From an uncultured Pelagibacteraceae bacterium (GTDB lineage Bacteria; Pseudomonadota; Alphaproteobacteria; Pelagibacterales; Pelagibacteraceae), in contig CACPKA010000006.1 in NCBI GenBank assembly GCA_902634485.1, positions 1 through 64,000 of the forward strand: a stretch of DNA of 64,000 bases, written 5' to 3'. Below are positions 17,835 through 31,968 of this stretch, one piece after another. The notes under the pieces are model-generated. The model searched no databases and had not been told where the DNA came from. It saw only the letters and a list, made by a program, of their open reading frames with translations. The number at the start of each line of letters is the position of its first letter. The first letter of the stretch is position 1. A program made the translations under genes and the position numbers.

Positions 17835-18296
17835 ATGAAAAGATTAATAATTATTCTATTATTTATTACTACCTCTTTGTACGCTGAAAAAATAGAAAGA
17901 CTTAGTTTCTACAACATTCAAGAAATACTCGGAGATGATAAATTAACTTATAAAATACTTAAAGGATGTGTATCTATGAATTCAGCGGTTACAGAAATTA
18001 TTAAAGAAGAACATCCAGACCTAGCAAAAGAATTTTTTGAAACAGCTAATTATCTTTATCCTTTTGGTATTTTAGTTTTAAAAAAGATAAAAAATATAAA
18101 CCATCAAAAAGCAGAAAAAGAATATTTTTTTGATATAAACAATCTCACAGATGATTATGTGAATTTTATGAGAGAAAATGGTGCTATTAATAAAAGTTTT
18201 TTTAAAGGAACATTTCTTGGTGATGACTTAAATTTCTGTAATGAAATTAGAGGTGCAATAGAAGTATCTATTTCGCACTCCAAAAAAACAGAATAA
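17835..18296 (+). CDS. Hypothetical secreted protein
   Basis: 153 aa ORF with signal-peptide-like N-terminus. Confidence 0.6.
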   Translation: MKRLIIILLFITTSLYAEKIERLSFYNIQEILGDDKLTYKILKGCVSMNSAVTEIIKEEHPDLAKEFFETANYLYPFGILVLKKIKNINHQKAEKEYFFDINNLTDDYVNFMRENGAINKSFFKGTFLGDDLNFCNEIRGAIEVSISHSKKTE

Positions 18297-18297
18297 A

Positions 18298-18600
18298 TTA
18301 ATTTGTTTTTTTCTTAAATTTTGGAATTTTAGATTTCTTTTTTTTCTTTTTCTTAGGTATCTTAGATTTTTTTGAATCTGATGATCCTTCTTCATTAGCA
18401 ACTTCTTCTATCGCTTCCAATATTTCTTTACATTCAGTGGAATTACAAAAATAAGTTGAGCCTGTTTTTGTGTTATATAAATAAGCTCCGCAATTATCTT
18501 TTTTTTTTAAAGTACAATTTACAGGCTCAAGCCTATATTCTGCAAACAAACAAGTTGTAGAAAATAAAAAAAAAGTTAAAGTTAAAAAAAATTTTTTCAT
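18298..18600 (-). CDS. Hypothetical exported protein with Lys-rich C-terminal tail
   Basis: signal peptide and SKIPKKKKKKKSKIPKFKKKTN tail. Confidence 0.55.
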   Translation of the reverse strand: MKKFFLTLTFFLFSTTCLFAEYRLEPVNCTLKKKDNCGAYLYNTKTGSTYFCNSTECKEILEAIEEVANEEGSSDSKKSKIPKKKKKKKSKIPKFKKKTN

Positions 18601-18809: not shown

Positions 18810-20012
18810 ATGAAAATAAAGAAAATGTTATATGTTGTTCTTTTCTCTTGGTTTTTTGGAATTTTTTCTTCTGCTTCTGCAGGGGAATTATGCACAGAGT
18901 GTTTAAGTAAGGTTCCTCAAGACATGAGAGATTATGTTTACAACATGGACTTTATGGATAGTGATCAGCCACTTGGAGAAGCGGTAATGAGAAAGTGGAA
19001 AAGTCCTAGAAAACCACCTTGGACAATAGGTTATGCTAGTACTTACGCTGGAAACACTTGGAGAAAAGGAGCAATGGAGCGTTTAATGGAAGTTGTTTAT
19101 CCTAAGTGGAAAGCTTTAGGAATGGTTGATGAAATTGTTATTACTCAATCAAATTTGGATGACTCTTTACAGATTCAGCAAATGAGACAGATGATAGATG
19201 GTGGAAAAGTTGATGCTATTATTATTTGTTGTTCTAACATTACAGCTTTAAACACTACAATTAAATATGGTTGGGAAAAAGGTATTCCAACTTTATCTTT
19301 TACTGGCTTTACAACATCGCCATATTCGATCAATACGTCTGTTAACTACAGATTGGTTGGTTACTATGTTGGTGCATGGATGGCTGAGTTAATTGGTGAA
19401 AAAGGTAATGTAATAGTTATGGAAGGAATTCCTGGCTATTCAGCATCTGACCAACAGAACAAAGGTGTATTAGCTGCGCTTGATGAATATCCAAATGTTA
19501 ATGTTGTTGGACAATTAGCACACAACTGGACTTCTCAAATTGCACAGAAAGAACTTTCGCAATGGTTATCAACTAATACAAAAAAAGTTGACGGTATTGC
19601 AGTTCAATCTTCAGGAGAGACAGGAACTTTACAAGCTCTGCTTCAGTCAGGACTTGATCCAATTCCACCAATTGCATTAGGTGGAGAATTGGGAGCTCTT
19701 TGTTATTGGAGACAAAACCCAGGTTATATTGATGAAGCGATATATGCTTGGCCTCCAGGAGATGAAGTTGAGTTAGGTATGGAAGTAATGATAAGAACAC
19801 TTCAAGGTCAAGGTCCTAGAATCCAATCTATATTGGTTGGTCCTGCTACTAAGAATTTCGATGAGATTAAAGCAATCTTAAATGAAGATTGTGATAGAAA
19901 TTCTACTGGTTGGGATAACCCGGGAATGGAAAAATGGGCTCCGAAATCGTATATAGAAGCATTCTTTGATAATCCTAAAGATCCGACAAAATACGATCCA
20001 AAATCTCATTAA
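18810..20012 (+). CDS. Sugar-type (ribose-like) ABC transporter substrate-binding protein
   Basis: signal peptide, Peripla_BP_4-like sequence, adjacent to double-NBD ATPase and RbsC-type permeases. Confidence 0.85.
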   Translation: MKIKKMLYVVLFSWFFGIFSSASAGELCTECLSKVPQDMRDYVYNMDFMDSDQPLGEAVMRKWKSPRKPPWTIGYASTYAGNTWRKGAMERLMEVVYPKWKALGMVDEIVITQSNLDDSLQIQQMRQMIDGGKVDAIIICCSNITALNTTIKYGWEKGIPTLSFTGFTTSPYSINTSVNYRLVGYYVGAWMAELIGEKGNVIVMEGIPGYSASDQQNKGVLAALDEYPNVNVVGQLAHNWTSQIAQKELSQWLSTNTKKVDGIAVQSSGETGTLQALLQSGLDPIPPIALGGELGALCYWRQNPGYIDEAIYAWPPGDEVELGMEVMIRTLQGQGPRIQSILVGPATKNFDEIKAILNEDCDRNSTGWDNPGMEKWAPKSYIEAFFDNPKDPTKYDPKSH

Positions 20013-20031: not shown

Positions 20032-21783
20032 ATGAGTGCTGAAATAAATATGAAAGACAACACCTCAAAAAAAAAAGAGGTGTTGTCTGATAAATCAAAA
20101 ACTGTTCAAGGTGATGTATATGTCCAAGATGTTCATAAGTATTTTGGTGTGACAAGAGCTTTGAATGGTGTGAATTTTAATGCAAACTTTGGAGAAATTC
20201 ATGCCATTGTCGGTGGAAATGGCTGTGGCAAGAGCACACTTGCAAAAGTAATGTCCGGAGTTTTGCCAATTGATAAGGGCAAAGTTTCTGTATTAGGCCA
20301 TACCCCAACATCGCCGGTTATGGCAAGAAATATGGGTATAGCAACTGTGTTTCAAGAAGTTATGATTGCAGAAGAAGCTTCGGTCGTTGATAACCTATTT
20401 GTTGGTTCAGATGATTTTTGGTACAAAAATCTAACTCAAAGAGAAAAAGTATTAAAAGCACAAGAAATAATGGAAGATCTTGTTGGTGAATATATTGATC
20501 CCTACACACAGGCTTTTAATTTATCATTACCAATAAAAGCATGGATTACAATTGCAAGAGCATTCTTGCGTGAGAATACCAAAGTATTAATACTTGATGA
20601 GTCATCTGCTGCACTTGATTTTGATTCAACTGAAAGATTGTTTAAAAAAATGAGAGAGTTGAGAGACAATGGTGTTGCAGTATTTATAGTTACTCACAGA
20701 ATTGCTGAGTTGGTTAGAATAAGTGACAAGGCAACAGTTATGAGGGATGGCAAAGATGTAGGTGTATTGGAAAAAAAAGATCTTAATGAAAAAAATTTGA
20801 TAGGTTTAATGACTGGAAGAACAGAAATAGGAGAAAAAAGCAAGGGTTTAGCCTTGCAGGCTAAAACTGATAAAATAGTTATGAGGGCAGAAAATTTAGT
20901 TGTTTGGCCAAATAGTAAACCAGTTAATTTTGAAGTTAAAAAAGGTGAAATTGTAGGGGTAACAGGTTTGGATGGAAATGGACAAGATGACTTTGTTAAA
21001 ATTTTAGCGGGTGTTCAAGAATCTCATGGTGGTACTACAGAAATTTTAGATACAAAAGAAAAATTCACAAAATATAATTCATTGGAAGATGCAAAAAATA
21101 ATGGAATATCATTTGTTTCTGGAGATAGAAAAAAAGAAGGAATACTTCCTAATTTAAGCATTTATGAAAATTTAGTAGTTCCTCTTTATAAAAAAACTAG
21201 CAGAGGAGGTTTTTTAGGATTTGTGGATTGGATGGAATTAAATGGTATCTTTGACTGGGAAGTAGATAGATTAAGTATAAAAACTGGTCCAAGAGATAAT
21301 TTAATAGGTTCTCTTAGTGGGGGTAACCAGCAAAAAGTTATGATAGCAAGATCATTTGCTCAACATCCTAAAGTTTTAATTTTAAATGATCCTGCAAGAG
21401 GCATAGATGTAAGTACAAAAAGAGATTTATATACTCACTTAAGAAATTATGTTGAAGAAGGTAATACAGTTGTTTTTTTATCTAGTGAACTAGAAGAATT
21501 TATAGGACTTTGCCCAAAAGTAATGGTTTTCAGAAACGGAACAGTATTCGATATATTTGAAAATGAAAAAGTTAATGCAGACACTTTGTTAGAGGGAATG
21601 TTTGGCCAAACTGCTGGTATTGGTGAAACAACTATTTCAAGTAAATCAAATACACCTTTGATGCCTACACCTAATAGAAAAATTGATAATAAAATTCCAG
21701 AAAAGAAAATCTTAAAAGTAGTAGATTTCGGTAAGGAAAATAATAATGAAAATAAAACAAAAATAAAAATAAAAACATTTTAA
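20032..21783 (+). CDS. Sugar ABC transporter ATP-binding protein (two NBDs) with short novel C-terminal tail
   Basis: GGNGCGKSTLAKVMSG Walker A; LSGGNQQKVMIARSF signature; tail KKILKVVDFGKENNNENKTKIKIKTF. Confidence 0.9.
   Translation: MSAEINMKDNTSKKKEVLSDKSKTVQGDVYVQDVHKYFGVTRALNGVNFNANFGEIHAIVGGNGCGKSTLAKVMSGVLPIDKGKVSVLGHTPTSPVMARNMGIATVFQEVMIAEEASVVDNLFVGSDDFWYKNLTQREKVLKAQEIMEDLVGEYIDPYTQAFNLSLPIKAWITIARAFLRENTKVLILDESSAALDFDSTERLFKKMRELRDNGVAVFIVTHRIAELVRISDKATVMRDGKDVGVLEKKDLNEKNLIGLMTGRTEIGEKSKGLALQAKTDKIVMRAENLVVWPNSKPVNFEVKKGEIVGVTGLDGNGQDDFVKILAGVQESHGGTTEILDTKEKFTKYNSLEDAKNNGISFVSGDRKKEGILPNLSIYENLVVPLYKKTSRGGFLGFVDWMELNGIFDWEVDRLSIKTGPRDNLIGSLSGGNQQKVMIARSFAQHPKVLILNDPARGIDVSTKRDLYTHLRNYVEEGNTVVFLSSELEEFIGLCPKVMVFRNGTVFDIFENEKVNADTLLEGMFGQTAGIGETTISSKSNTPLMPTPNRKIDNKIPEKKILKVVDFGKENNNENKTKIKIKTF
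20056..20087 (+). promoter_or_regulatory. Perfect 11-bp stem hairpin with A10 loop at the start of the ATPase ORF
   Basis: GACAACACCTC-A10-GAGGTGTTGTC immediately after SBP gene; no T tail. Confidence 0.75.
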
Positions 21784-22295
21784 TGAAAAAAGAAAATAAA
21801 AATAATTATTATAATGAAGATGATAAAATTAATTTTGAAAAATTAAATAATTTTAAAAAATTTAAGTCTGATAATGTAGAAAATTTTCAAATCAAAAATT
21901 ATAGTACTAGATACTCTAATTCTGATAAAAATAACTTTAACAATATTCTAAAAACTAATGAAAATATATCTACGCTAAACCAAAAAGATATTAATGAAGA
22001 AGTGAAATATTATAATTCCTCAGACTTTAAAAAATTTGATCAACTAAATAATTTCCCTGAATACAATGATAATAAAGCACATGAAGATAAAGAAAATATA
22101 AATTCTAAAGTAACTTATAAATCAAGTGACTATGGTGAATTTAATAAAATAATCCAAACAAAAAATAATGACGAAAAAATAAAAAAACAAAATAAAAAAA
22201 TAAAAATTATTGATTACAGCAAATTAAAAGATGTTGGAAAAAAACTTAAAAATAAAATTGGAATTGAAAAAATAAAAATTGTTTATTTTGATTAG
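21783..22295 (+). CDS. Uncharacterized 170-aa low-complexity repeat protein (candidate scaffold)
   Basis: Translationally coupled to the ATPase (overlapping TAATGA); four Y-x3-D-x3-F-[DEN]-x-[IL] repeats. Confidence 0.75.
   Translation: MKKENKNNYYNEDDKINFEKLNNFKKFKSDNVENFQIKNYSTRYSNSDKNNFNNILKTNENISTLNQKDINEEVKYYNSSDFKKFDQLNNFPEYNDNKAHEDKENINSKVTYKSSDYGEFNKIIQTKNNDEKIKKQNKKIKIIDYSKLKDVGKKLKNKIGIEKIKIVYFD
21810..22151 (+). repeat. Four degenerate peptide repeats (~34-aa period)
   Basis: YNEDDKINFEKL, YSNSDKNNFNNI, YNSSDFKKFDQL, YKSSDYGEFNKI at residues 10, 44, 77, 112. Confidence 0.8.
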
Positions 22296-22298
22296 TAT

Positions 22299-24620
22299 AT
22301 GGAAATAGTAGATAAAATAAAAAAAACTTACAGATCAAGTGTTGATACTTCTTCAAACAAGTATCTAATGGTTCCAATATTCATCTTTTTTTCTTTATTA
22401 ATTTTTGCATTAATTAGAAGCCCAATAATTATTTCTCAATCTGGAATAGGAAGTGCAATAATGCTTACAGCTCCATTAATTTTAACAACTTATGCATTAA
22501 CATTTATAGCAATGGCAGGAAGAGGTGGGGTTGATTTATCCATTGGTCCCTTTATGGGTTTTATAAATGTAAGTAGTATTCAATTGTATGCCGCAGGTTT
22601 TTTACAGACACCTATTGGATGGTTTGTTTATGCGATTGCAATGGGTTTAATTTGGCAGCTGTTTTATGCTTTGATTGTTTGTTTTGTAAGAGTATCTCCA
22701 ATTATTGTTTCGCTAGCAGGATACTTAGCTTTTGCGGGAATCAATATTGTAATTTTGCCAAGACCAGGAGGAATAGCGCCTGATTGGCTTATTCCATGGG
22801 GAGAGGGTTTTACAATTTTTAATGAAATATTCCTTCTAATGATTTTAGCAACAATATTGTTTTATATAATTACACATACTGCATTCTGGGGTCATTTAAA
22901 ATTAATGGGAGCAGATGAAAGAGCTGCATTTACAAGTGGAGTTAAAATTAATTTAGTAAGAATAGTTGCTCATATGATTGCAGGAATTTTTGCAGCATTA
23001 TCTGCAATATGTTTTACTGCACTTGTTGGTTCTGGAGATCCTTTGCAAGGAACCAAATATACATTGTTGGGTATAACGGCTCTAGTTTTGGGAGGTGCAA
23101 GTCTCGCGGGAGGTCGTGGAGGTGCTTTTGGTGCAATTTTAGGTGCCTTAAATTTATATCTTATTAATTACATCTTGGTTACTTTTAAATTTGAAAGACT
23201 TCAAAGCTTTGTCTCCGATTTATCTTATGGAGCAGTTTTAGTTATTGCCTTGTTAGTTAGTTTAATTCTTCCTTACGTTACAAGAGTAACAAGAGGTTTA
23301 TCTGTGATGGTATTTTTTATTCTTATGGCTTTTGCTGGATTGTTTGTTGTAATACATCAAGTATATGATCAGCCAATAGTTGTTGAAAAAGTTGTTGAAG
23401 AAGAAAAAGATGATGACAGAAGAGGAGCAAAAATAAGAAAAGTAGATGCAACAGGAAATATTATTGTTGAAGAGGGAGAAGAAGGAACAACTACCGGTAC
23501 AGGTACTGCAAAAGGTGGCTCTCTTGCAGGACATGGTGTAGTTCAATTTACTGAAACACCAGGGACAATTGTTTTTTATGTAATTCTAGGAATAGCTGGT
23601 GCTGCTTTATTGCTTTATTTATTAGCTGCTCATAGGAGTCCTTCAACGATCACTTTTGCAGTTGTTGTGGTTATAATGGTTGCAGGTTTAATTTTTGACC
23701 CGGATGATAAAGAAAAAGACTTATTAAAAGAGACAGAGTTAATAACTTTACAATCTAATCAGTCAAGTAGTATTGAAACTTCTGCACCTCAATATTTTAG
23801 TTTAGAAAAAATAAATTATTTACCTAATATTTCAGAAGGCGTTCTTATTTCTGGAACTACATACAGTATAATTTATTTAGCTGGAGTAGTATTACTTGCT
23901 TCACTTTTGGTAATTACGATGCTACCCCAATTTAATGTTCGAGCAAAATCTACAGCAATGCTTTTTTTTCTTGCAGCGTTATCGTTAATTGTTTTGAAAG
24001 GAGTGTCTTATAACAATTTAGCAGAAAGTTCAGATAGTAGCTTTTTCGGTATTCAAGGATATGGCGTAATATTAGTGAGTCTACTTTTGTTTGTTATTAC
24101 TGCTCCATTTGCTCATTCCAAAATAAAAAACCTAACAAACGTTTATATATTTGGATTTGGTGTACTAGCAATAATTTCTACTTATTTCATAGGAGGAAAT
24201 ACTTTTATCCCTAGTGATACATCAATTTATCAGCCAAGAATAATAAGTGAGTTAAATATTGGTGACCTTTCACAAATTAAATACGAATCTACAAAAAGAT
24301 TTTTCTACGAGACTGTAAATTCAGGCTATTCACAAGTAGCTTTTAGTATTTTGGCAGTTTTCTTATTGCAATATTTTTTGTTTTTAAACATGGGTCAAAA
24401 AGGAAGTTACAAAAGATTTGCTCCATATATGTACATTGTTATCTTCGCAAGTATTTTATGGTCAGCAATATTTTATTCAGTTGGGTACTCATTTTACAAA
24501 ATTTTAGCTGTTTTTGTTATAGGAATACCACTTACTCCTTTAGTATGGCAATTCATGACAATATACAGGGAAAAAATAGCTAGAGACAATAAATTAAGCC
24601 AATGGGAAGAGGTAAAATAA
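22299..24620 (+). CDS. RbsC-type ABC transporter permease with large C-terminal membrane extension
   Basis: N-terminal ~330 aa BPD_transp_2-like (GRGGVDLSIGPFMGF, LGGASLAGGRGG); unusual acidic linker and extra hydrophobic segments to 773 aa. Confidence 0.85.
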   Translation: MEIVDKIKKTYRSSVDTSSNKYLMVPIFIFFSLLIFALIRSPIIISQSGIGSAIMLTAPLILTTYALTFIAMAGRGGVDLSIGPFMGFINVSSIQLYAAGFLQTPIGWFVYAIAMGLIWQLFYALIVCFVRVSPIIVSLAGYLAFAGINIVILPRPGGIAPDWLIPWGEGFTIFNEIFLLMILATILFYIITHTAFWGHLKLMGADERAAFTSGVKINLVRIVAHMIAGIFAALSAICFTALVGSGDPLQGTKYTLLGITALVLGGASLAGGRGGAFGAILGALNLYLINYILVTFKFERLQSFVSDLSYGAVLVIALLVSLILPYVTRVTRGLSVMVFFILMAFAGLFVVIHQVYDQPIVVEKVVEEEKDDDRRGAKIRKVDATGNIIVEEGEEGTTTGTGTAKGGSLAGHGVVQFTETPGTIVFYVILGIAGAALLLYLLAAHRSPSTITFAVVVVIMVAGLIFDPDDKEKDLLKETELITLQSNQSSSIETSAPQYFSLEKINYLPNISEGVLISGTTYSIIYLAGVVLLASLLVITMLPQFNVRAKSTAMLFFLAALSLIVLKGVSYNNLAESSDSSFFGIQGYGVILVSLLLFVITAPFAHSKIKNLTNVYIFGFGVLAIISTYFIGGNTFIPSDTSIYQPRIISELNIGDLSQIKYESTKRFFYETVNSGYSQVAFSILAVFLLQYFLFLNMGQKGSYKRFAPYMYIVIFASILWSAIFYSVGYSFYKILAVFVIGIPLTPLVWQFMTIYREKIARDNKLSQWEEVK

Positions 24621-24621
24621 C

Positions 24622-26025
24622 ATGAAAAGATCTGCTTTTCTTTTTTTTAAAGGATTAGGATTATTTTTTGCAATCCTATGCGGTATTGGTACTGCTGTAC
24701 TTGGTTGGTTTGATGGTGCCGACTGGATGAATATTGTTGCATACTCTATAGCAGTAACTGGGTTAATACTGTGGGGATGGTACCATTTTTCTGTAAGATG
24801 GATTAACGAAGAATTAAAACAAAATATATTTACTAAAATGCCTAAAGAAGAAGAAAAAGGGCAAGATAGTGAAGATGAAGAAAATTTCTTTATTAAAAAT
24901 ATCAGGGAAAATAAATGGAAAACTATAGCTTTCCTTGGCGCAATTTTAATATTTATATTTGTATCTTTTATCGCAGAAAATTTCTTTTCTGGAAGAACTT
25001 TAGTTTCATTTTTAATTTTCCTTGCGTTTGTAATTTTTATGGGGGTTATAAGTAGGTTTATTAAAGGAACCAAAAGCGTTTTTGTTGGTATATCTGTTTT
25101 AATTGGATTGTTTATAATTGGATCATTAACAATACCGGGTTTTTTAACATTAATGAATATGAAATCGATGCTAGTTTTTGCTGCATTTCTTGGTTTAGCA
25201 ACTGTAGGACAAACTTTTGTTGCGATGTTGGGTGGTTTAGATTTATCTATCCCTTTTGTTATTGGGTCTATGAACGTAGCACTAATGTCATTAATTTCTA
25301 AGGGAGTTCCGCCATGGCTAGCTTGTGTGGCAATCCTATTACTTGGTGCTTTAATAGGATTGGTAAATGGAATTTTAAGTTTTAGATTACAAGGACAAGC
25401 TTTAATTTTAACATTAGGTGTTGGTTTTTTTGTTAAGGGTGGAGTTCAAATACTTGTAGCAATGGGAACTTTTTCAGCTGGTACAGTTTTTGGAGTAGTG
25501 CCTCCCTGGATGACTAATTTAGCATCCATGAATGGTAAAACTATAGGTCTTCCCATACCTCCGGTTGTAATTATTTGGATAGTTGCAAGTATAATAATCA
25601 TTGTTGGTCTACGGTTAACAAAATGGGGAAGACATTTATATGCTTTAGGGGGTAGTAGATTATCTTCTTCAAGACTATCAATCTCTGAAAGAGGTTATTG
25701 GATTGGGGCTTATGTTATAAGCGGATTTTTTGCAGCTTTAACGGGAGCACTTCTTCTAGGTTGGAGCGGTGGAGGATTTGTCGGAGCAGGAGATATATAT
25801 CTATTTACAACAATAGCTGCAGTAGTAATTGGCGGTACTTCATTATTAGGTGGTTATGGAGGATATGGATTAAGTGTGATAGGTGTTTTAATTTTACAAA
25901 TAATAACAACTGTATTGATTGGATGGGGTTTGAGTTGGGAAGCTCAACAATTTATTCTAGGTTTATTAATTATACCAATGGTAGCGCTTTACGCTAGGTC
26001 ACCACATATTAGGTCACAAATATAG
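24622..26025 (+). CDS. RbsC-type ABC transporter permease with N-terminal extension
   Basis: GGLDLSIPFVIGSMNVA, VIGGTSLLGGYGG; ~150-aa N-terminal membrane extension. Confidence 0.88.
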   Translation: MKRSAFLFFKGLGLFFAILCGIGTAVLGWFDGADWMNIVAYSIAVTGLILWGWYHFSVRWINEELKQNIFTKMPKEEEKGQDSEDEENFFIKNIRENKWKTIAFLGAILIFIFVSFIAENFFSGRTLVSFLIFLAFVIFMGVISRFIKGTKSVFVGISVLIGLFIIGSLTIPGFLTLMNMKSMLVFAAFLGLATVGQTFVAMLGGLDLSIPFVIGSMNVALMSLISKGVPPWLACVAILLLGALIGLVNGILSFRLQGQALILTLGVGFFVKGGVQILVAMGTFSAGTVFGVVPPWMTNLASMNGKTIGLPIPPVVIIWIVASIIIIVGLRLTKWGRHLYALGGSRLSSSRLSISERGYWIGAYVISGFFAALTGALLLGWSGGGFVGAGDIYLFTTIAAVVIGGTSLLGGYGGYGLSVIGVLILQIITTVLIGWGLSWEAQQFILGLLIIPMVALYARSPHIRSQI

Positions 26026-26035
26026 GAGAAAAAAA

Positions 26036-26755
26036 ATGACAAAAATAAATTGTGATATGGGAGAAAGTTTTGGAATTTATAATGCAGGAAATGATGAACA
26101 AATAATGCCTTTAATAGATGTTGCTAACGTTGCATGTGGTTTTCATGCATCAGATCCTAATCATATGAGAAAAACAGTAGAGCTGGCAAAAAAAAATAAA
26201 GTAAAAGTAGGAGCTCACCCTTCTTTTCCTGATTTACAAGGTTTTGGAAGAAGAGAAATTAAAATGCCAAAATTAGATTTAAAAAATATGATTATGTATC
26301 AAGTCGGCGCTCTTAAAGCTTTTTTAGATGAGTATAATATGCCTTTAAACCATATAAAGCCTCATGGATCTTTATATGTTATGGCTTCAAAAGATGAAGA
26401 GATAGCAAGAGCTATTGCCGATGCGGTTGAAACTTTTAATGTAAGTATTTATGGTATGGCAAATACAGTTCATGAGGAGATTTACAAAAAGGAAAGAAAA
26501 TTAGACTTTATAGCAGAATTTTATGCTGATTTAGATTATGACAAAGATGGAAAACTTGTAATAGCTAAAGGAAAAAACGCAAAATATAGCAGCAAGTTAG
26601 CAGTAAAACGTTGTTTAAGAGCCATAAAAGAAAAAAAAGTTAAAAATACAAGTGGTACAGATACAGATGTCGGATGTGATATTATTTGTGTTCATTCAGA
26701 CACACCCAATGCCGTCGAAATCATAAAAAGTTTAAAAAAAGCTCTTAAAAAATAA
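26036..26755 (+). CDS. pxpA: LamB/YcsF family protein (5-oxoprolinase subunit A-like)
   Basis: INCDMGESFG, DVANVACGFHASDPNHM, GAHPSFPD motifs. Confidence 0.9.
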   Translation: MTKINCDMGESFGIYNAGNDEQIMPLIDVANVACGFHASDPNHMRKTVELAKKNKVKVGAHPSFPDLQGFGRREIKMPKLDLKNMIMYQVGALKAFLDEYNMPLNHIKPHGSLYVMASKDEEIARAIADAVETFNVSIYGMANTVHEEIYKKERKLDFIAEFYADLDYDKDGKLVIAKGKNAKYSSKLAVKRCLRAIKEKKVKNTSGTDTDVGCDIICVHSDTPNAVEIIKSLKKALKK

Positions 26756-26760
26756 ATCGA

Positions 26761-29217
26761 ATGAAAAAAATTCTAATTGCGAACCGTGGAGAAATTGCCT
26801 GCAGAATTATTGATAGTTGTAAAAAACTTAATTTTCATTCAATTGCTGTTTATTCTGATGTAGATAAAAACAGTAAACATGTAAGAAAAGCCGACGAGTC
26901 AATTTACATAGGAGGTTCAAAAGCGCAAGATAGTTATTTATCTATAGATAAAATAATTGAAGCTGCAAAAAAAGTAAAAGCTGATGCTATCCATCCTGGC
27001 TATGGTTTTCTTGCTGAAAATGATAAGTTTGCAGAAAAAATAATTGAAGCTGGAATTGTTTGGATAGGGCCCAAACCTAATACTATTGTTTCTATGGGAA
27101 ACAAAGATATAGCCAGAGATTTAGCTCTAAAAAGCAATTTGCCTATTTGCCCAGGTTTAAATAATAAAGATTTAGAAAGAGAAGATTTAGAAAAAAAATG
27201 TAATGAAATTGGTTTTCCAATTCTGGTTAAAGCAAGTGCTGGTGGTGGTGGAATAGGAATGCAAATAGTAAATAATTATAGCGAGTTAGTTAAGTCAGTA
27301 GAAAAAACAAAAAATTTAGCTAAAAAAGCTTTTGGCAATAGTGATGTTTTTTTGGAAAAATTTATAAAAAATGCTAGGCATGTAGAAATACAAATATTTG
27401 GTTTTGGTGAAAAAAAAGCCGTACATTTTTATGAAAGAGATTGTTCAATACAAAGAAGATTTCAAAAAATTATAGAAGAAAGCCCAGCTCCTAAAGTAGA
27501 GTCAGATATTATTAAAAAAATGTTAGAGAATGCAGTAAACTTTGCAAGCAATCAAAATTACGAAGGTGCTGGAACTATAGAATTCATTTATGATGTAGAT
27601 GAAAAAAAATTCTATTTTTTAGAGATGAATACAAGAATTCAAGTAGAACACCCAGTAACAGAGGCTATAACAAATTCAGATTTAGTTGAAATGCAAATTA
27701 AATTTGCACTAGGTATTGATATTGATTTGATAGATCAAAATAAAATTAGTCGAAATGGACATGCTATTGAATGTAGATTATACGCAGAAGATCCAACAAA
27801 AAATTTTCTTCCTTCACCTGGAAAAATTTCGAAACTAAAAATCCCAAATGTAGGTTTGACAAATATTAGATTGGATATTGGTATTGATGAGGGAGATGAA
27901 ATATCTTTTTATTATGATCCAATGATAGCAAAAATTATTTCTAAAGGATCTAATAGAAATGAAAGTATTACTAATATGATAAATTTTTTAAATGATTTTA
28001 AAATTGAAGGAATTAATACCAATAAAAATTTTCTAATTTCAGTACTTCAAAACAAAACTTTCATGGATGCTAATTTTAATACAAAATTTATTGAAAATAA
28101 TTTAGATTCATTTCTTGAGAAAAAAGACGATATTTTAGTAAAAAAACCTCAAAATTCAGCTAATACTAAACAAGAGTATAGTGGCAAAGATTTAAAAGCT
28201 TTTGAAAAAATTATTGCAAAGACTCCTAAAAGTAAAAATGGTCAAGGCTATACTACAAAAGATTTAAAAGCATTTGATAATATTGTTTCTTCACAAAATA
28301 AAAAAACTCAAACTGAAATAAAAACGGAAGTAAAAAATGTTGTAGGTAAAATCTATGACACTCCTAAATTTTTACCTGCTGGTGATAAATATATGCTTAT
28401 TGAATTTGGGAATGTTATGAACCTAGAGTTAAATTTCACTGCTCAAAACTTGGCTAAAGCAATCAAAGACCATAAGGTTAAAGGTGTATATGAAACATCG
28501 CCATGTTTTGCATCAATGATAGTGCATTATGAACCACAAGAAATAAAATTTAATGATTTAAAAAATGAATTACAATCTTTAATTGGGTCTTTAGGACCAT
28601 CAGATGAAATAGAAATAAATAGCAGAATTTTTTCATTTCCCACTGTTTATTTAGACAAGTGGACTAAAGAATGTATTGAAGATTATTCTGATAAAATTGC
28701 TAAAAAAAAACCTGACCCAGAACTTATTACTGAATTAAATAATCTTGAAAACATCGACCAATTTGTAAGAGTTCATTCGAGCACAGAATACTGGGTAGCT
28801 GCAATAGGTTTCTGGCCTGGTCTCCCTTTTATGATGGCGCTCGATCCAAGATGCAAATTAACAGTACCAAAATATAATCCTCCAAGAACATGGACGCCAA
28901 AAGGTAGTGTTGGAATGGGAGGGGCTTCTACTTGTATTTATCCCGATAGATTACCTGGTGGATATCAAATTTTTGGAATTATTCCTGTTCCAATTTGGGA
29001 TACAAAAAAAAGTTTTCCAGTATTTGAAAATAATATATGCCTCTTTCAACCAGGAGATAGAGTAAAATTTATTCCTACCACTTATGAAGAATTTGATCAC
29101 GTATCAAAAAAAATAGAAGATGGAACTTACGACTATAATATAGTTGAATATCAAAAATTTTCAGTAAAAAATTATAAAAATTGGTTAAAAAATATTGACC
29201 AATCAAAAAGATTTTAA
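26761..29217 (+). CDS. Biotin carboxylase fused to KipI/PxpB-like domain
   Basis: MKKILIANRGEIACRIIDSC..., KASAGGGGIGMQ, EMNTRIQVEHPVTE; C-terminal FVRVHSSTEYWVAAIGFWPGLPFM...LPGGYQIFG KipI domain. Confidence 0.9.
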   Translation: MKKILIANRGEIACRIIDSCKKLNFHSIAVYSDVDKNSKHVRKADESIYIGGSKAQDSYLSIDKIIEAAKKVKADAIHPGYGFLAENDKFAEKIIEAGIVWIGPKPNTIVSMGNKDIARDLALKSNLPICPGLNNKDLEREDLEKKCNEIGFPILVKASAGGGGIGMQIVNNYSELVKSVEKTKNLAKKAFGNSDVFLEKFIKNARHVEIQIFGFGEKKAVHFYERDCSIQRRFQKIIEESPAPKVESDIIKKMLENAVNFASNQNYEGAGTIEFIYDVDEKKFYFLEMNTRIQVEHPVTEAITNSDLVEMQIKFALGIDIDLIDQNKISRNGHAIECRLYAEDPTKNFLPSPGKISKLKIPNVGLTNIRLDIGIDEGDEISFYYDPMIAKIISKGSNRNESITNMINFLNDFKIEGINTNKNFLISVLQNKTFMDANFNTKFIENNLDSFLEKKDDILVKKPQNSANTKQEYSGKDLKAFEKIIAKTPKSKNGQGYTTKDLKAFDNIVSSQNKKTQTEIKTEVKNVVGKIYDTPKFLPAGDKYMLIEFGNVMNLELNFTAQNLAKAIKDHKVKGVYETSPCFASMIVHYEPQEIKFNDLKNELQSLIGSLGPSDEIEINSRIFSFPTVYLDKWTKECIEDYSDKIAKKKPDPELITELNNLENIDQFVRVHSSTEYWVAAIGFWPGLPFMMALDPRCKLTVPKYNPPRTWTPKGSVGMGGASTCIYPDRLPGGYQIFGIIPVPIWDTKKSFPVFENNICLFQPGDRVKFIPTTYEEFDHVSKKIEDGTYDYNIVEYQKFSVKNYKNWLKNIDQSKRF
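28177..28284 (+). repeat. Two copies of the Y-x3-D-x3-F motif in the biotin carboxylase-KipI linker
   Basis: YSGKDLKAFEKI (28177-28212) and YTTKDLKAFDNI (28249-28284). Confidence 0.8.
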
Positions 29218-29221
29218 AATT

Positions 29222-30349
29222 ATGGTACAAGTAATTAAAAAAGGTTTGGAAACTTCGATACAAGATTATCCAGGAAGGATTGGAACTTTAAATCAAGGAT
29301 TTCCTTCTTCTGGACCAATGGACAGTTGGTCTTTCAGACTTGCAAATGTTTTAGTTGAGAATGAGCCAGGTGCGGCTGCTTTAGAATGTCAATTTATGGG
29401 ACCTACTCTAAAGTTTAATAGCGATAGAGTTATTGCAATAACTGGTGCTGACATGTCTCCCAAGATAAATGGAAAACGAGTCCCTTTATGGGAAAGTTTA
29501 GAAGTTAAAAAAGATCAAATTTTAGAAATGACTTTTGCAACCATTGGAGCTAGATCCTATATCGCTTTTGCGGGAGGAATAAATAGTAAACCTTGGTTGA
29601 GCTCTAAATCAACTTTTCATAAAGCTGGAGTTGGTGGAATAAATGGAAAAGCAATTCAAAATGGCCAAGTTATTCCATTGAATAAATCTAAGTCATTCGC
29701 AGGAAGAAAAATTAAAAAAAATTCTATACCAAACTTCTCTACAAATAAAAAATGGTCTGTAGAAGTTGTTAAAGGTCCCAACGATGATTGGGTTGATGAT
29801 AAAGGACATAGAATGTTTTTAAATTCTGATTGGAAACTTCAGTCTAAAAGTGACAGAACTGGATATAGATTAGACGGCCCTAAATGGACTTTTGCCGAAA
29901 AAGCAACTAATAAAGGCTTGGAACATGGAACATTTCCCTCAAATATTATAGATCAAGGATATCCCGCTGGCGCAATTAATTTGGCAGGACAAACGCCAAT
30001 TATATTAGTTAACGATGGTCCAACTATGGGAGGATTTATTGTTCCTTATACAGTTCCCTCGGCATCTTTTTGGAAGCTTGGTCAAGCTAAACCAGGTGAT
30101 ACTTTGAATTTTGAAGAAATTTCAGTTGAAAAAGCTCAAAGATTAAGAGCCGAACAAATTATCACTTGCAGTGAAGCAAGTCTAGAAACTTACAAAAAAG
30201 AAAAAATAACAATTCTTGAAAAGCAATATAAAAAAATTGATCATATTAAAGTAATAGATTTTGATAAAGAAAAAATGAATGAAAAAATTAGAAATAGAAT
30301 AATAGAAAAAAAAGGAATGAAAAATATTAAAATTCGCTTTTTTAATTAA
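29222..30349 (+). CDS. pxpC: KipA/PxpC-like biotin-dependent carboxyltransferase domain protein with novel C-terminal tail
   Basis: KGLETSIQDYPGRIGTLNQGFPSSGPMDSWSFRLAN, GQTPIILVNDGPTMGGF; start placed at ATG 29222 rather than the overlapping 29195. Confidence 0.88.
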   Translation: MVQVIKKGLETSIQDYPGRIGTLNQGFPSSGPMDSWSFRLANVLVENEPGAAALECQFMGPTLKFNSDRVIAITGADMSPKINGKRVPLWESLEVKKDQILEMTFATIGARSYIAFAGGINSKPWLSSKSTFHKAGVGGINGKAIQNGQVIPLNKSKSFAGRKIKKNSIPNFSTNKKWSVEVVKGPNDDWVDDKGHRMFLNSDWKLQSKSDRTGYRLDGPKWTFAEKATNKGLEHGTFPSNIIDQGYPAGAINLAGQTPIILVNDGPTMGGFIVPYTVPSASFWKLGQAKPGDTLNFEEISVEKAQRLRAEQIITCSEASLETYKKEKITILEKQYKKIDHIKVIDFDKEKMNEKIRNRIIEKKGMKNIKIRFFN

Positions 30350-30365: not shown

Positions 30366-30584
30366 ATGACTACTGAAGTTAAAACAACTGTACCAGGCAA
30401 CATGTGGAAAGTGTTAGTTAAAGAGGGAGATATGGTTAAAAAAGGAGACCCTTTATTTATTATGGAAGTTATGAAAACTGAAGTTCATCATGACTCTCCG
30501 GTTGATGGAAAAGTAATTAAGGTTAATGTAGTAAATGATCAAGAAGGTATTGATCCGGATACTGTAGCTATCGTAATTGAATAA
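30366..30584 (+). CDS. Biotin carboxyl carrier (biotinyl/lipoyl) domain protein
   Basis: 72 aa with EVMKTEV biotinylation motif. Confidence 0.88.
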   Translation: MTTEVKTTVPGNMWKVLVKEGDMVKKGDPLFIMEVMKTEVHHDSPVDGKVIKVNVVNDQEGIDPDTVAIVIE

Positions 30585-30787
30585 TGAATAAAAAAAAAGA
30601 AACCTCATATTTAAAAATAATAAAAGATCTTTCTGAAGATATAGGAATCCCAAAAGAAGAAACTAAAAGTTTAGTTGATGTTGCCATGTCATCTATTGAT
30701 CCTAGAGATGTGAATTATGAGCAATTAAAAAAAGAAATTTTAACTTTTCTAGTCATAAACATTTTTTTTCTTATTTGTAAATTGTAA
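30584..30787 (+). CDS. Hypothetical small protein of the carboxylase operon
   Basis: ORF overlaps BCCP stop by 1 nt. Confidence 0.5.
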   Translation: MNKKKETSYLKIIKDLSEDIGIPKEETKSLVDVAMSSIDPRDVNYEQLKKEILTFLVINIFFLICKL

Positions 30788-31401: not shown

Positions 31402-31968
31402 TTATTTATTAATATATCTAGTAATAGATGGAATAAGAACTACTGCTAAACCGATTTTAAAAAATTCACTTGGAATAAAAGGATATAATCCTCCCGCTAG
31501 CGCTTTATCGTATCCAATAATTGATCCTAAATACCCAACTCCAAATAAAAAAATAATAAAAGTTCCAATTGATAGAGATAACAAACTTTTAAAATACGAC
31601 TGGTTGTAACCAAGTTCTGAGAATAAACCTATAACACCAGCTGCAATCGTCATACCATAAAGGTAACCTGCTGTAGGACCGGTTAAATATAGTAGACCAC
31701 CACCTTTTGCAAATACTGGCAAACCTAGAGCACCTTGAAAGAGATAAAAAACTAATGTAGCAAAAGCCATTTTCCAACCGTAAGCCATTCCAATAATAAA
31801 TACTACGAAAGTTTGCATTGTCATTGGCACAGGCCAAAACGGAACTTGAACTTTTGAAGAAAGTGCTAAGATTAAAGTACCAAAAAATATTAAGGCAATA
31901 TTTTTTAAGTAAATATTGATTTTATAGTTTGATAAAAGTGAATCAGCTAATGAACTATTATTTTTCAT
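31402..31968 (-). CDS. bioY: Biotin transporter BioY
   Basis: KVQVPFWPVPMTMQTFVVFIIGMAYG, QGALGLPVFAKGGG, GPTAGYLYG. Confidence 0.93.
   Translation of the reverse strand: MKNNSSLADSLLSNYKINIYLKNIALIFFGTLILALSSKVQVPFWPVPMTMQTFVVFIIGMAYGWKMAFATLVFYLFQGALGLPVFAKGGGLLYLTGPTAGYLYGMTIAAGVIGLFSELGYNQSYFKSLLSLSIGTFIIFLFGVGYLGSIIGYDKALAGGLYPFIPSEFFKIGLAVVLIPSITRYINK

Follow-up and report, generated by a model that had tools for sequence, protein, structure and literature searches.

Short elements shared within a transporter–carboxylase operon

The window analysed here, a stretch of 64 000 nucleotides from a SAR11 (Pelagibacteraceae-type) genome labelled G000, carries a co-directional operon on its plus strand. 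The products encoded are, in order, a substrate-binding protein, an ATP-binding cassette (ABC) ATPase, a protein of 170 amino acids (aa) designated q170, permeases 1 and 2, a PxpA/YcsF hydrolase, a biotin carboxylase (BC) fused to KipI (BC-KipI), KipA, a biotin carboxyl carrier protein (BCCP) and a 67-aa protein. Two short peptide elements, motif A and tail B, recur on several of these proteins and are considered below as putative docking tags. Motif A had been described in a first-pass annotation of this DNA, which assigned q170 and BC-KipI to one co-directional operon; that assignment holds.

Four copies of motif A, Y-x3-D-x3-F-x2-[IL], are present in q170 (21783-22295), at residues 10, 44, 77 and 112, and two in the linker of BC-KipI (26761-29217). 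The copies in q170 are YNEDDKINFEKL (21810-21845; Y/D/F invariant, followed by L or M), YSNSDKNNFNNI (21912-21947; Y/D/F/I invariant), YNSSDFKKFDQL (22011-22046; Y/D/F kept in 42 of 43 orthologs) and YKSSDYGEFNKI (22116-22151; conserved). Those in the linker are YSGKDLKAFEKI (28177-28212, residue 473) and YTTKDLKAFDNI (28249-28284, residue 497), in both of which Y/D/F/I are invariant among 32 orthologs. The six copies listed in the first-pass annotation, with their spacing of Y, D and F, were thus confirmed both in the sequence and in ortholog alignments. In composition-preserving shuffles, the mean number of copies was 0.007 for q170, against 4 observed, and 0.0009 for the linker, against 2 observed.

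Orthologs of q170, situated between the genes for the ABC ATPase and permease 1, were found at 43 Pelagibacteraceae loci, as well as in G927, a genome discussed below. Among those 43, 15 of the 16 key Y/D/F/I-L positions are at least 95% conserved, versus 4 of the 110 others (Fisher P 6e-15); in the linker (32 orthologs) the corresponding figures are 8 of 8 and 4 of 69 (Fisher P 2e-8), the sequences compared being related rather than independent and several of the genomes incomplete. In every q170 copy, Y, D and F are invariant or lost once and I/L is nearly so, while the flanks diverge freely. For the 16 key codons of q170, the median nonsynonymous divergence (dN) is 0.000; it is 0.42 for the remaining motif codons and 0.53 for other disordered codons, with a synonymous divergence (dS) of about 0.9 throughout.

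A motif-A profile recovered only the six known sites in the genome of the window at E≤0.003, the next site having an E value of 0.24, and no site in 57 relatives lacking q170 reached E 0.01. Because that profile includes the six sites themselves, the scan was repeated with a profile of the q170 copies alone. The BC linker was then the best match outside q170 in G108 (E 0.025), G097 (0.044), G001 (0.089) and G024 (0.099). In G000, an unrelated site (E 0.067) ranked above the linker (0.43); the evidence from any single genome is therefore modest, and weight is placed on conservation across genomes. Weak matches in G002, G039, G044 and G014 were inspected as possible further carriers of the motif in SAR11 and rejected, being unrelated, ordinary-looking proteins, one of them presumably, from its appearance, a threonine-synthase-like frame. 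Chance and AT-rich low complexity are ruled out as the origin of motif A by the shuffles, the ortholog conservation and the genome-wide scans. The motif exceeds shuffled sequences, is confined to the operon and is kept at orthologous loci, an outcome that favours the first-pass annotation.

A second element, which went unnoticed in that annotation, is shared by the ABC ATPase, q170 and KipA at their C-termini. This tail B has the form IKhhDF-x(8-22)-[IM]KhxxF and is represented by LKVVDFGKENNNENKTKIKIKTF in the ABC ATPase (21712-21780), KKIKIIDYSKLKDVGKKLKNKIGIEKIKIVYFD in q170 (22188-22292) and IKVIDFDKEKMNEKIRNRIIEKKGMKNIKIRFFN in KipA (30233-30346), the last also recognized in profile matches. 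It is present in every ABC ortholog whose contig extends to the C-terminus. The RbsA/YtfR-type ABC ATPase (20032-21783; 583 aa; Pfam ABC_tran) runs about 60 aa past the ends of its homologues, the NCBIfam RbsA, YtfR and MglA models stopping at 515-528 of 583. Similarly, KipA/PxpC (29222-30349; 375 aa; Pfam CT_A_B) is about 60 aa longer than its known homologues, and the structures of urea carboxylase and YbgK align with it only to residue 312-313.

Profile-profile comparison of the tails gave E values of 9e-10 for q170 and KipA, 2e-7 for KipA and ABC, and 6e-6 for q170 and ABC. The C-terminal end of each of the 62 longest non-overlapping frames in the window was scored with a matrix built from q170 tails alone, which gave 42 for q170, 30 for KipA, 24 for ABC and 7 for the next frame; a matrix built from KipA tails picked the identical three proteins. 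A profile of q170 tails alone matches the KipA tail in G419 (E 5.5e-5). With a profile of KipA tails alone, the ABC tail is the best non-self match in G000 (E 0.11), and the q170 tail is the best other match in G024 and G108. The dN of tail B in q170 is 0.157, versus 0.53 in other disordered codons. Judging from these sequences, tail B appears to mark the transporter physically.

An AlphaFold2 (AF2) model of q170, based on 39 sequences, has a predicted template modelling score (pTM) of 0.19 and therefore no global fold, in keeping with the disordered character that the first-pass annotation had ascribed to the protein. Helices at residues 12-27, 46-56, 79-90 and 114-123 fall on the four copies of motif A in turn, and strands at 140-144 and 165-169 fall on tail B. 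Motif A would accordingly be expected to form a helix in which Tyr lies just ahead of an S/T-x-x-D capping box and Phe and Ile/Leu share one face. A comparison of q170 with PDB sequences yielded a single borderline match, to a fucolectin-related chain (E 0.013), that was judged spurious.

Enzyme, importer and distribution of the elements

All of the parts of urea carboxylase were identified by Pfam and NCBIfam in the distal half of the operon: BC and CT_CD (KipI) in the 818-aa BC-KipI (26761-29217; Pfam; NCBIfam urea_carbox, TIGR02712), CT_AB in KipA (29222-30349), and a stand-alone BCCP of 72 aa containing the sequence MEVMKTE (30366-30584; PF00364, E 4.6e-12), the presence of which rules out a carboxylase without a carrier protein. 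They are preceded by the PxpA/YcsF hydrolase (LamB_YcsF; 26036-26755; PF03746, E 2e-89). The enzyme does not have the single-chain arrangement BC-CT_AB-CT_CD-BCCP, as its parts are divided among three chains, and the best TIGR02712 score is 743 against a cut-off of 1304. Nor do the scores reach the PxpABC equivalog level (PxpB, 92 against 146; PxpC, 173 against 500), and BC and BCCP are present in addition. The PxpABC/biotin-carboxylase label of the first-pass annotation is replaced here: from its domain content, the enzyme is predicted to be a urea-carboxylase-like carboxylase that is split and has a 72-aa BCCP of its own, and not a plain PxpABC.

The importer belongs, at the family level, to the RbsABC sugar type, with an ATPase containing two nucleotide-binding domains, BPD_transp_2 permeases and a Peripla_BP_4 substrate-binding protein (18810-20012; PF13407, E 6e-39); no equivalog cut-off was reached. 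In permease 1 (22299-24620), the Pfam BPD_transp_2 domain occupies residues 54-317 and is followed by about 450 extra residues, and permease 2 (24622-26025; Pfam) has about 150 extra residues at its N-terminus. The homologues of the two permeases in the second lineage described below are similar in length (757 and 463 aa), and these proteins are possible receptors for the tags.

Homologues of BC, KipI and KipA at 16 loci without a sugar-type importer, together with the ordinary PxpABC paralogs of G000, G012 and G106, were scored for both elements. The untagged proteins scored at most 10 for motif A and at most 8 for tail B, versus at least 20 and at least 27, respectively, for the tagged proteins in that comparison. 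It follows that, in the loci sampled, the tags go with the transporter. The untagged PxpABC set of the window's own genome is situated elsewhere (L164, G000:C26:1-6000). Several KipI and KipA copies related to the carboxylase were also observed in four genomes of another alphaproteobacterial family (L218, L219, L221 and L267-L274); no tags were found on them, and the importer is absent.

The converse situation was observed in three SAR11 genomes (L044, L055 and L068). At these loci, the genes for the substrate-binding protein, ABC ATPase, q170 and permeases are kept with their tags intact, and the genes for PxpA, BC-KipI, KipA, BCCP and a glutathione S-transferase-like protein are gone from between permease 2 and a metallo-hydrolase-like gene. 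BC-KipI was not found elsewhere in these genomes, which are incomplete.

G801, a genome of another family with a different operon layout (class II), emerged when Alphaproteobacteria were searched with the KipI domain. In this second lineage, KipI is encoded separately, directly after the ABC gene, and has an N-terminal extension of about 120-130 aa beginning MVQEYKNTDLDLFDKI. The BC is also separate and ends in RIKIVETDKLK...GGIKVVYFD, and the ABC ATPase ends in VKVVDFTDKPKSKEKIKVKYF. Neither a tail B on KipA nor a q170 was found in the class-II loci read. KipI of the class-II type is present in 41 genomes of the genus of G801, mostly with the full extension.

Position-specific scoring was used for class II because HMMER domain scores are erratic on short motifs. 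With the SAR11 motif-A matrix, the start of KipI was the top of all windows in each of the eight class-II loci scored, at 17-23 bits. The maxima over 20 shuffled loci had a median near 9 and reached 17.4, so a single class-II locus is not decisive. Among class-II C-termini, those of ABC and BC had the top two tail-B scores wherever both genes were present with their ends, and the BC tail matches the q170 tail with an E value of 2.4e-8. A third family is represented by G927, in which a 207-aa ortholog of q170 carries four copies of motif A and a tail B, and tail B is also found on ABC and KipA.

It is apparent from these layouts that tail B occurs on at least two proteins, the ABC ATPase always being among them in the loci examined. 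Motif A is confined to one protein in class II, in G927 and in the enzyme-less SAR11 loci, that is, in three of the four layouts.

Possible docking at the importer

The two elements are interpreted as docking tags because few residues are strictly kept in an otherwise disordered chain, because the elements recur on partner proteins, and because they move from subunit to subunit across lineages. Docking or scaffolding, as proposed in the first-pass annotation, is the best explanation for a motif that is shared, selected and confined to the operon. On balance, the sequence data suggest that two portable docking tags bring together the two products of the operon, a sugar-type ABC importer and a split carboxylase resembling urea carboxylase, with the enzyme assembled at the importer. 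We infer binding by the tags, a pairing of A with B and, as their outcome, a transporter-bound enzyme.

The arrangement envisaged is as follows. Tag A would form an amphipathic helix that is short and capped, Y-[ST]-x2-D-x3-F-x2-[IL], and tag B a C-terminal two-strand element, IKhhDF...IKhxxF. The q170 protein would act as a flexible, multivalent adaptor with four A helices and one B tail. The likeliest contact would be a pairing in trans of A helices with B tails, by which q170, or the motif-A N-extension of class-II KipI, would capture the tails of the ABC ATPase and of carboxylase subunits. The carboxylase would thereby be held at the inner face of the importer. Since, in three of the four layouts, A is found on a single protein and B on at least two, including ABC, A-A pairing is not a general mechanism, and A-B pairing or a third-party receptor is favoured over it.

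More tentatively, with a likelihood put at somewhat below even, the two elements may constitute a docking code, confined to this operon across the genomes searched, that couples the importer to the cytoplasmic carboxylase using its cargo. Such a code would move between subunits from one alphaproteobacterial lineage to another, the tag on the ABC ATPase remaining constant and q170 serving as adaptor, and the whole would amount to a transporter-anchored metabolon. Channelling of substrate from an importer to the first enzyme is often proposed for bacteria and rarely shown. SAR11 are very abundant marine bacteria, and coupling of importer and enzyme would be expected to pay in them because their streamlined cells live at vanishing substrate concentrations. 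If the proposal is true, the operon encodes a compact tagging system that tethers enzymes to ABC transporters. Short peptides and point mutants offer a direct test of the proposal, and searches with tail B could reveal partners of the importer.

Several observations weigh against docking of the carboxylase at the importer through A-B pairing. The tails of class-II BC and ABC each resemble that of q170 and are mutually barely alike (E 0.075), and the HMMER scores of the class-II tails are weak. The AF2 model of q170 (pTM 0.19) contains no stable packing of A helices on tail B. The model of BC-KipI is poor (predicted local distance difference test score, 40), and the helices that it places on the two linker copies (475-485 and 499-509) are of low confidence; an intramolecular docking site sought in the same model was dropped for that reason. 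The uniqueness of the tags in whole genomes refers to the SAR11 genus and near relatives. Motif A was not found in the BC-KipI linker of G927, which, together with the three enzyme-less loci, rules out motif A as a carboxylase-only tag. Finally, as q170 and the ABC tail persist where the enzyme genes are gone, the tags must also serve the transporter alone. The link between transporter and carboxylase that the first-pass annotation drew through motif A therefore needs to be reworded: it is tail B that marks the transporter, and motif A is not tied to biotin carboxylase.

The persistence of ABC, q170 and permeases with intact tags in the absence of enzyme genes is also what would be expected under the main rival explanation, namely that what both tags bind is not each other but one or two third-party receptors within the transporter, such as cytoplasmic portions of its extended permeases, with q170 competing with, or counting, the carboxylase subunits. 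The unusual extra domains of both permeases, found in the second lineage too, are in accord with this possibility. It requires extra receptors, however, and no conserved one can be named from sequence; moreover, permease 1 is strongly divergent (about 45% identity between lineages), whereas the tags are conserved. A receptor of this type is considered unlikely, if still a serious contender, and A-B pairing is the likeliest explanation in that it accounts for every layout without an extra part.

The restriction of motif A to a single protein in three of the four layouts bears on a further proposal, that A-A and B-B contacts act as stickers on flexible spacers and gather transporter and carboxylase into a condensate, like CsoS2 or EPYC1. 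Such self-association would fit with the presence of several copies on a flexible chain, with stickers of aromatic and aliphatic type and with the beta-prone tails of several chains, but A-A contacts cannot join different proteins in those layouts, and the proposal is regarded as improbable.

Marginally less probable again is the suggestion that q170, the linker and the KipI N-extension are fission or fusion remnants of one old extension, kept as capped spacers with no docking role. The q170 protein and the class-II KipI N-extension do share a position directly after the ABC gene, and the match between the q170 and class-II BC tails noted above is in keeping with common descent. Passive spacers, however, would not be expected to have a dN of zero at the key positions versus 0.53 around them; tags are also present on ABC and KipA, neither of which arose from the other by fission, and the transporter-less homologues are also without tags. 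That the elements are instead amphipathic helices holding proteins to the inner membrane, or recognition signals for protease adaptors, is very improbable despite their shortness, amphipathic character and flanking lysines, given that membrane binding would need neither an invariant Asp and Tyr nor so strict a spacing, and that a membrane or degradation signal would be expected on other proteins too, where none was found in the genome scan.

Related systems and neighbouring genes

In the docking of megasynthase subunits, an N-terminal alpha-beta-beta-alpha-alpha domain receives a C-terminal short linear motif (SLiM) of fewer than 15 aa, which adds to it as a beta strand (PMC9113145). The SLiM/beta-hairpin docking of polyketide synthases and nonribosomal peptide synthetases resembles the present case in that short, disordered tags at subunit ends recruit partners and are portable and sometimes promiscuous, one tag serving several partners (PMC9113145). 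Here, by contrast, a repeated helix and a bare two-strand tail are found, and the proteins are an ABC importer and a carboxylase rather than assembly-line modules. No Pfam match to a beta-hairpin docking domain was obtained for eight operon proteins, in which only enzyme and transporter domains were found.

The N-terminal domain of CsoS2 contains four helical repeats that bind an enzyme weakly and multivalently, conserved Tyr residues being important (PMC11365436). Like this disordered repeat scaffold of alpha-carboxysomes, q170 is, with a pTM of 0.19, a disordered chain with short helices. It matched no Pfam or NCBIfam family, that of CsoS2 included, and no shell genes were noted among the identified genes of the operon. 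The client here is different (an ABC transporter together with a biotin-dependent carboxylase), and the client enzyme itself also contains the motif. From these comparisons, the tags of the operon appear to work like megasynthase docking elements and CsoS2 repeats while belonging to neither group.

As for the enzyme, it has the same BC, CT_AB, CT_CD and BCCP parts as urea carboxylase (TIGR02712; 3va7, 5i8i). It differs in being divided into three chains, or four in the second lineage, in the fusion of BC to CT_CD, and in its tags, which are absent from untagged relatives. With the PxpABC 5-oxoprolinase, it shares homologues of PxpA, PxpB and PxpC in one operon, but BC and BCCP are present here and the scores lie under the NCBIfam PxpB and PxpC cut-offs. 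A literature search revealed nothing relevant on SAR11 metabolons and, among the papers searched, no work joining 5-oxoprolinase, biotin carboxylase and KipI, or YcsF and biotin carboxylase.

To our knowledge, there is no known case of a tag common to an ABC ATPase and carboxylase subunits; the literature search found none.

The 67-aa protein encoded after BCCP (30584-30787, plus strand) has the conserved end INIF[FS]L[IL]CKL and matched no NCBIfam family; it accompanies the enzyme genes at other loci too (L162, L167, L220 and L262). Two genes upstream of the operon likewise accompany it at other SAR11 loci, one for a 153-aa protein (17835-18296, plus strand) and the other for a small, lysine-rich, putatively exported protein with SKIPKKKK repeats (18298-18600, minus strand). 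A similar-looking protein, ending GGMQLGG...KLKKP, was observed in the second lineage. On the other side, a gene at 31402-31968 (minus strand), the product of which resembles a BioY biotin transporter by eye, adjoins the operon for the biotin-dependent carboxylase.

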